DNA of 64,000 nucleotides, from the NCBI GenBank assembly GCA_013375495.1, contig JABXKC010000009.1, forward strand, positions 38,773 through 102,772, given 5' to 3'. Source of the DNA: Promethearchaeota archaeon. Its GTDB lineage: Archaea > Asgardarchaeota > Lokiarchaeia > Sigynarchaeales > SOKP01. A program made the translations under genes and the position numbers. The notes below the pieces were generated by a model. That model worked only from the letters and a program-made list of their open reading frames with translations, did no database searches and had not been told where the DNA came from. Below are positions 15,115 to 26,292 of this stretch, piece after piece. The stretch's first letter is position 1, and every line of letters starts with the position of its first letter.

Positions 15115-15501
15115 TTAGAGAGGTATGTTATTTATATCTAATATTTCTGGAATCCTTCGATTTCTTTCAAGCCAAGAAATTTCTGCATTAGTATATCGCC
15201 AAGTTATTTCGCATTTCCCAGGTTTATCCGGGGTTTCCGTTTCCCAATCCCAAGGAGATACTATTACTAAATCACCCTTCCTTATCCAAACACGTTTTTT
15301 AATTTTACCTCTAATCCTACCCACTCTATGTTTTCCGTCTTCACAAAATACTCCCATTCGTTCGTTTCCATATATGTCTGTAACTCTACCAAACATTTCC
15401 CCAATCCTTTTAGTAGGAAATTTCACACGCGTAACAACTGGTGGAACATAAGGACCTCTACTTTTTCCTCTCTTTACTTGTTTTCCTTGCTTTTTAGCCA
15501 A
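15115..15501 (-). CDS. eif1A: Translation initiation factor aIF1A
   Basis: Small-subunit initiation factor, 128 residues, OB fold. Seen: a basic N-terminus (KKQGKQVKRGKSRG), then FGRVTDIYGNERMGVF, CEDGKHRVGRIRGKIKKRVWI and KGDLVIVSPWDWE, all characteristic of eIF1A/aIF1A. The C-terminal ITWRYTNAEISWL matches the family helix. The N-terminus begins with TTG at 15499-15501 (TTG GCT AAA AAG), with AAAGGGA as ribosome-binding site. The gene sits between Spt5 and a cupin on the same strand, 30 bp after the cupin stop codon, so the three may be partly co-transcribed. Confidence 0.93.
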   Translation of the reverse strand: MAKKQGKQVKRGKSRGPYVPPVVTRVKFPTKRIGEMFGRVTDIYGNERMGVFCEDGKHRVGRIRGKIKKRVWIRKGDLVIVSPWDWETETPDKPGKCEITWRYTNAEISWLERNRRIPEILDINNIPL

Positions 15502-17645: not shown

Positions 17646-18164
17646 TTAATGACTTTGACGATCTAATATTCTTTTGGTTAATAAGTTAAATGCATTCTGA
17701 ACGTTCTCTCCAGATTTACTTGAAACCTTTAAATAATTGAACAAATTAAATGCTTCTTTAAATTCTAATGCATAATCGTCAGTAACCATTATATCGTTAG
17801 ATAAATCGTGTTTCGTGCCTAAAAAGAGAATTGGTAAATCAGGATCCCCTCTTCGGCAAATATTTACCCAATTTTCTAACTTTTCTAATGTAATAGGGCG
17901 AGTCAAATCAAACAGTAATAAAGCTCCTTTTGCACCTAAAACATAACTTTCTAACAAGAATCTGAACCTTTCTTGGCCACCAAAATCCCATAATTGGAGA
18001 GTACAGTACTGAGTGTCGATTTCTACTTCTTTAAGAAAAAATTCAACGCCAATAGTCATACGTGTTTCAGCACTAAATTTTCCTTCTACATAACGATGAA
18101 GAAGCGTGGTTTTGCCGACACCGCCTTCGCCAGCTAAAAGAATTTTTAATATAAACTTTTTCAT
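17646..18164 (-). CDS. Ras/Rab-like small GTPase
   Basis: A 172-residue single-domain GTPase. G1 is GEGGVGKTT (12-20), the switch I Thr lies in RMTIGVEFF, G3 is WDFGGQE (58-64), G4 is TKHD (116-119, replacing the usual NKxD), and G5 is SSKSG near 148. The Gln of DFGGQE, needed for GTP hydrolysis, is present. There is no C-terminal cysteine, so no prenylation site is visible. Such Ras-superfamily GTPases are abundant in Asgard archaea. It precedes the PIN-domain gene by 13 bp. The ATG has a weak purine-rich site (AATCAGGAAAT). The Thr-for-Asn exchange in G4 is known in some Ras-superfamily members and need not remove guanine specificity. Confidence 0.93.
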   Translation of the reverse strand: MKKFILKILLAGEGGVGKTTLLHRYVEGKFSAETRMTIGVEFFLKEVEIDTQYCTLQLWDFGGQERFRFLLESYVLGAKGALLLFDLTRPITLEKLENWVNICRRGDPDLPILFLGTKHDLSNDIMVTDDYALEFKEAFNLFNYLKVSSKSGENVQNAFNLLTKRILDRQSH

Positions 18165-21723: not shown

Positions 21724-21907
21724 TCTTAAACCACATTTACGATTCCGGGTTCGGATGGTACCGGGTACTATCCTGTATTACCATGACCGTAGCCGAAGCT
21801 ACAGTTTGCAAGTTCCCATAGATTTTCAACTACAGTACTATCTGCAACGCAAAACAGTTTAACTTCCGGCGTTGTAGCTAATCGCTACGAGATAATGTGG
21901 TTAAAGA
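21724..21907 (-). rRNA. rrf: Candidate circularly permuted 5S rRNA
   Basis: Read on the minus strand, the conserved 3' half of 5S rRNA comes first: GAAGTTAA (21859-21866), AGTACTG (21833-21839) and GGGAAC (21812-21817). Then follows CTGTAGC-TTCG-GCTACGG (21787-21804), where normal helix I strands are closed by a UUCG tetraloop. Then comes the 5' half with CCGG-TACCATCCGAAC-CCGG (21745-21764), the canonical helix III/loop C. Helix II can form between AATACAG (21773-21779) and CTGTTTT (21851-21857). Helices IV/V form from TTGCA/TGCAA and CTGTAG/CTATGG around an AGTA/GGAAC loop E. The outer ends TCTTTAACCACATT (21894-21907) and AATGTGGTTTAAGA (21724-21737) pair in 13 of 14 positions. A second hairpin, GTAGC-GATTA-GCTAC, lies at 21873-21887. 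No 3' half follows the 5' half, so the order is truly permuted. The break falls in loop B. Confidence 0.8.
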
Positions 21908-22059
21908 CACCACTAACAACCAATTCATATGTTCGGCTATATTATTGTAAAATGCTTTATTTATGTGGTTGTAAGTAATAGAAATAGTAAAGACTAGTAA
22001 TTAAACTTTTTCATAACAAATAGTTAAACTTAAAAGGATTTGTATTGAACTTATTAGGC

Positions 22060-24732: not shown

Positions 24733-26292
24733 ATGACGTACGTTTTAGAAGAAGTTTCGGGAATAGGTAAAGCAACAGCAGACCGATTAAGAGCGTCTGG
24801 CATTGATACAGTTGAAAAATTAGCTTCAATAACTCAAGAAGCATTAACACAGTTAAAAATCAAAGGAGTAGGTGAATCCACAGCTTTAAGGTATATTAAA
24901 AACGCTCAAAAATTAATTAAAGAAAAATCAAGTTATCCTGAATTAAAGAAAAAAGACAAGCCACTCAAGCAAGAAAAACCTCAAAAACCTGGACCAACTC
25001 AAAAAGTAAAACCTTCAAAAGGTAGTAATCTTAAAGATTTAATAAAGAAACAAGCAGAATGTAATATAGGGTTAGTTGGTCACGTTGATCACGGAAAAAC
25101 TACATTAGTTAAAGCCCTTACGGGAGACTGGACAGATAGACACTCCGAAGAACAAGAAAGGGGAATTTCTATAAAATTAGGATATTCAAACGCCACTATT
25201 TTGCATTGTCCCGAATGTGACGAGTATCTTACATATTATATGTCAGAAACTGCCAGAAAAAAAGGAAAACCTAGATTTGCTTGTCCAGCCTGTTCAAGCA
25301 CTTTGGAATTTAAAAGAAATATCTCCTTTGTAGATGCTCCCGGTCACGAAATCTTAATGGCTACTATGCTGAGTGGTGCTTCATTAATGAATGGCGCTTG
25401 CTTATTGGTTTCTGCGGATGAGGTGTGCCCCCAACCACAAACTAGAGAACACTTAGCGGCGTTAAATATTGCAGGCATCAATAAAATTATAATAATTCAG
25501 AATAAAATAGATGCTGTTTCAAAAAAGCAAGCCCTTGAAAACTATGAGCAAATTAAAGCCTTTGTAAAAGGTACAGTCGCAGATAAAGCTCCTATTATCC
25601 CTGTTTCTGCGGTTTTTGGAGCAAACCTTGGTTTAGTGGTTCGAGCGTTCGAAGAAATAATCCCCTCCCCAAACATTAGTGAAGAGGACGAATTTCAATT
25701 CTTAGTTGCTCGATCGTTCGATATAAATCGCCCTGGTACCAAAATTAATGAATTAAATGGGGGAGTTATTGGTGGTTCTGTCTTAAAAGGTAAAGTCAAA
25801 GTTGGTGAAGATATTGAGATTAGACCGGGGATTCGGGTTAAAAATAAATATAGTCCACTAAAAACCCAAATAATAAGCATAAGTCAGGGAAATAATTTCT
25901 TAGATGATGCTAAACCAGGTGGTCTAATTGGATTAGGAACTAAGCTAGATCCCGCATTAACAAAGGGAGATTCCTTAATAGGTCATTTAGTTGGTAGACC
26001 TGACACCTTACCAGAGGTAATATCCGAAGTCGAATTAGAGGTCAAATTGCTAGAAAGAGTTCTTGGGTCCGAAGTTCAAATGAAAGTCCAACAACTAAAA
26101 CATAATGAGAAGCTTTTATTAGTCGTTGGTACTGAGAAAACAGCTGGAATTGTAGTAAAGATACTAAAAAGTTCCTATATCCTTAATTTAAACCCACCAA
26201 TATGCGCTCCAGCAAATTCAATTTTTGCAATCTCAAGAATTATTAATAGACGTTATCGTTTAATTGGTTATGGTAAGGAATTTATTAAATAA
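24733..26292 (+). CDS. eif2G: Translation initiation factor aIF2 gamma subunit with N-terminal HhH domain
   Basis: GTPase that delivers initiator tRNA to the small ribosomal subunit. The core (about 105-519) has G1 GLVGHVDHGKTT, switch I ERGISIKLGY, zinc ligands C159, C162, C184 and C187, G3 DAPGHEILMATMLSGA, G4 QNKID and the eIF2-gamma-specific RSFDINRPGTKI. Ahead of it lies an extra domain (1-62) with two helix-hairpin-helix motifs: LEEVSGIGKATADRLRASG and LKIKGVGESTALRYIKNA. This closely resembles the N-terminal domain of RadA. A Lys/Pro-rich linker (63-100) joins them. Usual length is about 410 residues; here it is 519. The ATG at 24733 is the only start that includes the HhH, and both parts share one uninterrupted frame. 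SelB is excluded by the aIF2-gamma signature motifs. Confidence 0.93.
   Translation: MTYVLEEVSGIGKATADRLRASGIDTVEKLASITQEALTQLKIKGVGESTALRYIKNAQKLIKEKSSYPELKKKDKPLKQEKPQKPGPTQKVKPSKGSNLKDLIKKQAECNIGLVGHVDHGKTTLVKALTGDWTDRHSEEQERGISIKLGYSNATILHCPECDEYLTYYMSETARKKGKPRFACPACSSTLEFKRNISFVDAPGHEILMATMLSGASLMNGACLLVSADEVCPQPQTREHLAALNIAGINKIIIIQNKIDAVSKKQALENYEQIKAFVKGTVADKAPIIPVSAVFGANLGLVVRAFEEIIPSPNISEEDEFQFLVARSFDINRPGTKINELNGGVIGGSVLKGKVKVGEDIEIRPGIRVKNKYSPLKTQIISISQGNNFLDDAKPGGLIGLGTKLDPALTKGDSLIGHLVGRPDTLPEVISEVELEVKLLERVLGSEVQMKVQQLKHNEKLLLVVGTEKTAGIVVKILKSSYILNLNPPICAPANSIFAISRIINRRYRLIGYGKEFIK

Follow-up and report, generated by a model that had tools for sequence, protein, structure and literature searches.

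The window, a stretch of 64,000 nucleotides of DNA from a Promethearchaeota archaeon, carries on its minus strand (21908-21725) what is, judged from sequence, fold and covariation, a circularly permuted 5S rRNA gene of an archaeon: the 3' half comes first, followed by a UUCG loop closing helix I and then by the 5' half. We consider it likely that the transcript of this gene is cut by the splicing endonuclease at the bulge-helix-bulge (BHB) motif, the fold at which archaea splice, and that the ends are joined, probably by RtcB, into a circular 5S rRNA. While the earlier note on this DNA, made from the letters alone, saw one odd locus, genome searches indicate that the permuted state of this universal RNA, with a circular product predicted, is common to 139 of the 227 genomes searched in the phylum nearest to eukaryotes. 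5S rRNA belongs to the small set of universal RNAs, Asgard archaea are the closest known relatives of eukaryotes, and to our knowledge the only permuted 5S genes known so far are mitochondrial.

Structure of the 5S rRNA locus

All elements of 5S rRNA named in the earlier note are present on the minus strand. The run starts with a clamp strand (21906-21894) and a hairpin (21888-21874), continues from 21869 with a BHB strand and the 3' half, then with helix I and its tetraloop (21804-21787) and the 5' half up to 21743, and ends with the second clamp strand (21737-21725). The first part comprises the 3' part of loop B, helix V, loop E (AGTACTG), helix IV and the helix I 3' strand CTGTAGC; then comes TTCG, and after it GCTACGG as the 5' strand of helix I, followed by helices II and III and loop C (CCATCCGAAC). 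The features are as follows.

21937..21951, minus strand: possible TATA-box region, AT-rich, weak evidence (sequence; TATA-like words upstream of related genes)
21894..21906, minus strand: leader strand of the clamp stem, CTTTAACCACATT, removal predicted (sequence, fold)
21874..21888, minus strand: leader hairpin GTAGC-GATTA-GCTAC between the clamp and the BHB, removal predicted (fold, sequence)
21863..21872, minus strand: leader side of the BHB, with outer ACG 21872-21870, central CCGG 21869-21866, bulge AAG 21865-21863 and predicted cut 21864^21863 (BHB analysis)
21743..21863, minus strand: predicted mature 5S rRNA, 121 nt, expected to circularise through a bond between 21743 and 21863 (BHB cuts; HMM of conventional Asgard 5S)
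21798..21863, minus strand: 3' half of 5S, encoded first: loop B 3' part, helix II 3' strand, helix V, loop E, helix IV, helix I 3' strand (sequence, RF00001 half-hits, covariation)
21787..21804, minus strand: helix I strands CTGTAGC / GCTACGG with the UUCG tetraloop 21794-21797, at the place of the normal 5S ends (fold, covariation)
21743..21793, minus strand: 5' half of 5S, encoded second: helix I 5' strand, helix II 5' strand, helix III, loop C (sequence, RF00001 half-hits, covariation)
21739..21748, minus strand: trailer side of the BHB, with central CCGG 21748-21745, bulge AAU 21744-21742, predicted cut 21743^21742 and outer CGU 21741-21739 (BHB analysis)
21725..21737, minus strand: trailer strand of the clamp stem, AATGTGGTTTAAG, removal predicted (sequence, fold)

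TATA-like words were observed upstream of 43 of 65 related genes, compared to 44% in shuffles, and T-run signals likewise exceed the shuffles modestly. Translations read by eye point to a translation initiation factor 1A-like gene (15115-15501), a Rab/Ras-type small GTPase gene (17646-18164) and an elongation-factor-type GTPase gene (24733-26292) in the window, which is in keeping with an Asgard chromosome.

Folding and covariation

At the gathering level, Rfam gave no match in the window. Of the two Rfam models that the earlier note proposed as a check, RF00001 forced on the locus yielded only two half-hits (19.1 and 16.1 bits, with the cut-off at 38 bits), which is expected because the halves are swapped, and RF02547 (mtPerm-5S) yielded none in a 501-base portion of the window, even with the limit set at E<=10.

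The order of the halves and the closure of the helix I strands by UUCG, as read in that note, are borne out by the sequence, the fold and the covariation. The locus strand folds far better than its shuffles (z = -5.1). In the alignment of the window with ten relatives, both partners have changed in 16 of the 28 pairs; sliding the partners lowers pairing from 92.9% to at most 44.1%. In the 51-sequence alignment, both-side changes are seen in 26 of the 28 pairs, and 93.5% of the cells pair, versus 63.1% in shuffles and at most 43.5% with slid partners; none of 500 shuffles reaches the observed pairing. Compensatory changes among relatives, whose absence would according to the note refute its reading, are thus found in both alignments. 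The 127-base core is identical in the window and in one relative (L002), while the surrounding 7.5 kb align at 74%.

The bulge-helix-bulge motif at the ends

The new ends had been described as clamped by a 14-bp stem with one mismatch. A clamp does exist, with 12 pairs and one mismatch over the 13 marked positions and an extension given by the folding program, but the ends are not simply clamped: as read from the sequence, the flanks form an archaeal BHB splice motif, of which the earlier note made no mention. In the window, ACG-CCGG-AA^G of the leader faces CCGG-AA^U-CGU of the trailer, giving the central helix CCGG/CCGG and two 3-nt bulges, AAG and AAU. If the archaeal splicing endonuclease cuts the transcript at the BHB made by the leader and the trailer, between bulge positions 2 and 3, the subsequent join would restore the conventional 5S; in the window it would read ...CCGAACCCGGAA|GUUAAAC..., which equals the conventional 5S sequence. 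The GTAGC-GATTA-GCTAC hairpin, whose stem indeed repeats the letters of the helix I stem, is placed by this analysis in the leader, and both the hairpin and the clamp are predicted to be removed with the leader and trailer and to lie outside the mature RNA. Two points speak against splicing: the contiguous outer helix of the window BHB has only 3 bp, after which the leader hairpin interrupts the clamp, and, since the central strand on the trailer side is also the helix III 3' strand, the BHB and helix III folds compete.

All BHB geometries were enumerated in 92 loci, that is, those of 89 of the 139 permuted genomes (two with two copies) and the window; as many of these loci are close relatives, the counts are not independent. 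A strict BHB with a 5S-like join was found in 67 loci, 65 of which were retained after L092 (wrong place) and L100 (contig end) had been discarded. There were also 14 fits with three of the four central pairs, 10 of them accepted; the remaining four (L077, L091, L236 and L108) were misplaced by length, and L108 was then fitted at another site. A looser product rule, under which 72 of the 92 loci qualified (with 61 of 72 in its rotation test), let misplaced joins in and was replaced by the strict one. In total, 14 of the 92 loci have no accepted BHB with a canonical join and were not used further: L017 and L100, both cut by contig ends, and L077, L081, L091, L092, L096, L104, L107, L116, L236, L238, L239 and L244.

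The geometry, with a centre of 4 bp and two bulges of 3 nt, recurs in many lineages. In the strict set the outer helices reach 15 bp, and the central helix covaries, being CCGG/CCGG (n = 29), CGUG/CACG (n = 9), CUGG/CCAG (n = 8), CGGG/CCCG (n = 3), as well as CCGC/GCGG, CAAG/CUUG, CGAG/CUCG and others. When the flanks were shuffled with the cuts fixed, the geometry was kept in 2 of 6700 cases. Since the first count picked sites using the product, the choice was repeated blindly, by the stem strength alone, and led to a canonical join in 59 of the 92 loci, versus 7 of 920 with shuffled flanks.

Predicted product and its processing

The freed ends would be joined, likely by RtcB, yielding a circular 5S rRNA. 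An HMM built from 28 conventional Asgard 5S genes was applied to 78 of the 92 loci (65 strict, 10 with three of four central pairs, and 3 with other break points). The joined and rotated products scored higher than the encoded order in all 78 loci, with medians of 42.95 bits for the products, 19.55 for the encoded order and 0 for shuffled sequences, and they align to the conventional model over a median of 112 positions; the window gave 37.2 bits joined and rotated and 11.6 bits in the encoded order. The predicted circles have 115-131 nt, or 149-181 nt in the case of 13 loci with internal insertions.

Among 30 genomes tested (24 permuted, 6 conventional), the splicing endonuclease (EndA) was found in all and RtcB in 28. 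Two genomes with a permuted 5S and the splicing endonuclease, G064 (one main contig) and G113, gave no RtcB match even at E<=10; these genomes may be incomplete or may rely on a different ligation. The best reading is that the splicing endonuclease and RtcB would yield a circular 5S, by analogy with the Thermoproteus SRP RNA, and we infer that the permuted gene is transcribed, its transcript cleaved and ligated, and the circular mature form used in the ribosome.

Alternatively, the gene could be functional while its RNA stays linear, with the ends between loop B and helix III held by the clamp, as in the permuted mitochondrial 5S. The likeness to a BHB would then be incidental or a trimming signal. 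The clamp helix would by itself hold the ends, the BHB motifs are relaxed in some loci, and RtcB was not found in the two genomes mentioned above. Still, the two 3-nt bulges and the covarying 4-bp centre recur, yet a clamp needs neither, the joins are canonical even upon the blind choice, and the splicing endonuclease and, nearly always, RtcB are at hand in the genomes tested; we thus regard the linear RNA as unlikely.

The gene does not encode the usual ends of helix I, whose place is taken by the UUCG loop, so that a spliced circle would probably stay closed. Alternatively, the circle could later be opened in the loop of helix I, which would leave the ribosome with a linear 5S of the ordinary kind, as with permuted tRNA genes; to this we assign a slightly smaller chance than to the linear RNA. 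Against it, many loci have a tight UUCG or similar loop there and others a longer hairpin, and we know of no processing site in it. According to the cited portions of the respective papers, permuted pre-tRNAs form circles before cleavage returns them to the standard form (PMC10085705), which favours reopening, whereas the Thermoproteus SRP RNA, which speaks against it, stays circular (PMC4731332).

Distribution among Asgard genomes

An exact pattern requiring loop E before loop C was scanned over 84,980 species, one genome per species. It retrieved 20 stretches, of which 15 are, by eye, clear permuted 5S genes: twelve from Lokiarchaeota/Lokiarchaeia and one each from the "Asgard group", Baldrarchaeota and Njordarchaeota. 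Five bacterial matches (L001, L007, L013, L019 and L020) were taken as chance, the rest of 5S being absent by eye. As this one pattern was all that covered genomes outside Asgard, diverged cases may exist there. A conventional 5S in relatives, the search for which had been suggested in the earlier note, was seen in only one of the 15 first-found relatives (G003), where the RF00001 match over the cut-off adjoins a bacterial 23S gene.

The window and ten relatives served to build a covariance model, R1 (11 of 13 rows; L006 and L018 were left out because RNAalifold was partly misregistered on the first alignment), which was run over 227 Asgard genomes at E<=0.01 with stricter filters. R1, representing the permuted order, matched 142 genomes and RF00001 matched 64 over its cut-off, nine genomes being common to both lists. 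In three of these (G003, G055, G124) the conventional gene adjoins a bacterial 23S rRNA gene and is hence considered bin contamination. R1 matches that overlap the conventional gene itself occur in G199 and G216; these two, together with G100 and G212, where the R1 matches are weak (E 0.009 and 0.003, respectively), were counted as conventional. In G044 the RF00001 match (38.4 bits) overlaps the permuted locus, and G027 is the sole genome that truly has both permuted and conventional-order 5S. A second model, R2, of 51 rows was run on the 30 genomes with neither form and added a permuted gene in G049 and a fragment (positions 20-90 of 128) in G035. The 142 genomes, minus the four half-hits in genomes with an ordinary 5S and plus G049, give 139 permuted genomes (including G027), compared to 59 with the conventional form only, 1 partial and 28 with neither; as many of the genomes are MAGs, "neither" may reflect missing sequence. 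The contaminant contig of G124 carries a group I intron in its bacterial 23S gene (L121, 2054-2368, minus strand).

Thus, the two forms nearly exclude each other across Asgard genomes. Seven genomes whose main contig is approximately the whole genome (G022, with two permuted copies, G063, G064, G065, G133, G134 and G174) have a permuted 5S and no RF00001 match over the cut-off. The 5S-binding protein uL18 was found in 213 of the 227 genomes. According to PMC8813620, 5S prediction failed for the closed Heimdallarchaeum genomes, a failure that the permuted order would explain; and the 5S genes reported for some Asgards, Borrarchaeum and Jordarchaeum, in the cited section of PMC9723677 are in keeping with the conventional clades observed here. 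Genome quality rules that demand a 5S gene would misjudge Asgards with the permuted form.

These data bear on two further alternatives. The locus could be a copy that has decayed or been rearranged, while a normal 5S gene lies elsewhere in the genome, a possibility that the earlier note already ranked below a functional gene. Genomes with an ordinary gene only do exist, and G027 has both orders. On the other hand, the core is unchanged while the flanks diverge, the paired strands covary strongly, the two forms are nearly exclusive, and the seven assemblies of about one contig lack an RF00001 match over the cut-off; a pseudogene or duplicate copy was therefore rejected, and we consider decay highly improbable. 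An assembly or binning artefact is harder still to credit: at least the named genomes are MAGs, but the permuted gene recurs across 139 genomes, some of them assembled into about one contig, and the synteny is the same in the ten lokiarchaeal loci compared with the window.

Several loci have additional features. G068 has a tandem pair of permuted copies separated by 36 bases (L093, 136-256 and 293-413, both on the minus strand), with the inner part alike and helix II and the clamps different. In G174, a 165-base tRNA match that probably contains an intron (L087, 1851-2015, minus strand) closely follows the permuted 5S on its downstream side, and tRNA genes lie just upstream in L118 and L088, the former also having a sub-threshold C/D-box RNA match; in general, ARAGORN found tRNAs near few of 40 permuted loci, with no clear pattern. 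In both L079 and L113 the helix IV loop is enlarged by a common insert of some 30 bases, which has a UCUGC/GCAGA hairpin of its own.

Other permutation points and intron-like forms

Two loci (L080 and L110) are permuted in loop C and one (L108) on the 5' side of loop B. In all three the BHB cut rule still restores 5S, and the predicted circles all have 121 nt.

One of the conventional-order genes (G027:C117, L151, 1978-2115, minus strand) has an apparent 16-nt hairpin within a BHB, CACG-GAA-[CAGUCU-AUCG-AGACUG]-CGUG-AAA, at the site of the main permutation junction. This apparently intron-bearing 5S is possibly the form before permutation. Another conventional-order Asgard 5S (G212:C15, L154, 1094-1245, minus strand) is 152 nt long; some 34 additional bases, perhaps an intron or an expansion, separate its loop B from the 3' strand of helix II. 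In the lokiarchaeal-type permuted 5S genes of L111, L112 and L113, loop C contains an additional hairpin (CCGA-AAA ... UCGG-GA[AU]), which resembles a BHB intron, although its splicing would leave two extra bases.

Evolution of the permuted gene

The tree was constructed for 79 of 80 genomes from the proteins of the spc (ribosomal) operon and rooted at the midpoint, with no outgroup; G100, with its weak R1 match, was scored as conventional, and G003, G055 and G124 as permuted. The conventional 5S occupies four clades and the permuted one the rest, with two genomes of unknown state. Parsimony requires four changes with a permuted root and six otherwise; four if only losses are allowed, and ten if only gains. 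The deep supports are uneven, several being weak (0.45 to 0.74, and one 0), and the tree has no outgroup; hence the permuted state at the Asgard root, which parsimony prefers, is only a lean.

A broader scenario seems to us plausible, if somewhat more likely wrong than right. A covalently closed circular 5S would be the working ribosomal 5S in most Asgards, including Heimdallarchaeum, Odinarchaeum and Lokiarchaeia, and would have been the state of the Asgard ancestor, its origin lying in a 5S gene that had a BHB intron at this position, a form that one contig apparently still shows. Should eukaryotes branch from within these lineages, the ordinary linear 5S that they have would be a secondary return. 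The permuted 5S is a new rare genomic character for placing eukaryotes.

Comparison with known systems

The permuted 5S rRNA of some mitochondria, mtPerm-5S, was reportedly described by Valach et al. in 2014. In mtPerm-5S, too, the 3' half is encoded before the 5' half and helix I is closed by a loop, and the 5S locus of the window agrees with this definition; we know of no ligation through a BHB in this case. The mitochondrial genes are organellar, while the Asgard ones reside in archaeal genomes: the window aligns at 74-87% with named Lokiarchaeota contigs, so that mitochondrial encoding does not apply. RF02547 exceeded its cut-off in none of the 17 genomes tested and gave three weak matches elsewhere. 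Compared to the ordinary archaeal 5S (RF00001), the helices and the loop C and loop E motifs are the same, while the gene order and the ends differ. The permuted mitochondrial 5S is cited in the consulted portions of PMC10085705 and PMC9576764.

Among the papers listed in searches of an open-access library we found none that reports a permuted or circular archaeal 5S; preprints and subscription papers largely fall outside it, so a report there may have been missed. The relevant sections of PMC12918454 describe the BHB circularisation of archaeal 16S and 23S pre-rRNA, "but not 5S rRNAs", and report circular 16S and 23S transcripts of Asgard archaea. These are, like the predicted 5S circle, archaeal rRNAs processed via a BHB, but their gene order is normal, whereas the 5S is permuted. 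Permuted and intron-bearing archaeal tRNA genes, as presented in the cited parts of PMC3218864 and PMC3978253, follow the same BHB logic and use the same enzymes as proposed here for 5S; unlike the predicted 5S circle, the circles of permuted pre-tRNAs are reopened to normal linear tRNA, according to the passage cited from PMC10085705.

Among known systems, the SRP RNA of Thermoproteus tenax and T. uzoniensis comes closest, being permuted, BHB-processed and circular (Plagens et al. 2015, PMC4731332, in the sections considered). As with the Asgard 5S, a universal RNA has a permuted gene order and a BHB made by the leader and trailer, and was missed by standard annotation. In Thermoproteus, the same sections indicate, the circle was shown by RNA-Seq and the site is cut by the splicing endonuclease, whereas the 5S circle is predicted from sequence. 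Finally, the former case, as described there, concerns the SRP RNA of one crenarchaeal genus, while the latter involves a ribosomal RNA, occurs in 139 of the 227 genomes searched in a phylum and has at least three permutation points.
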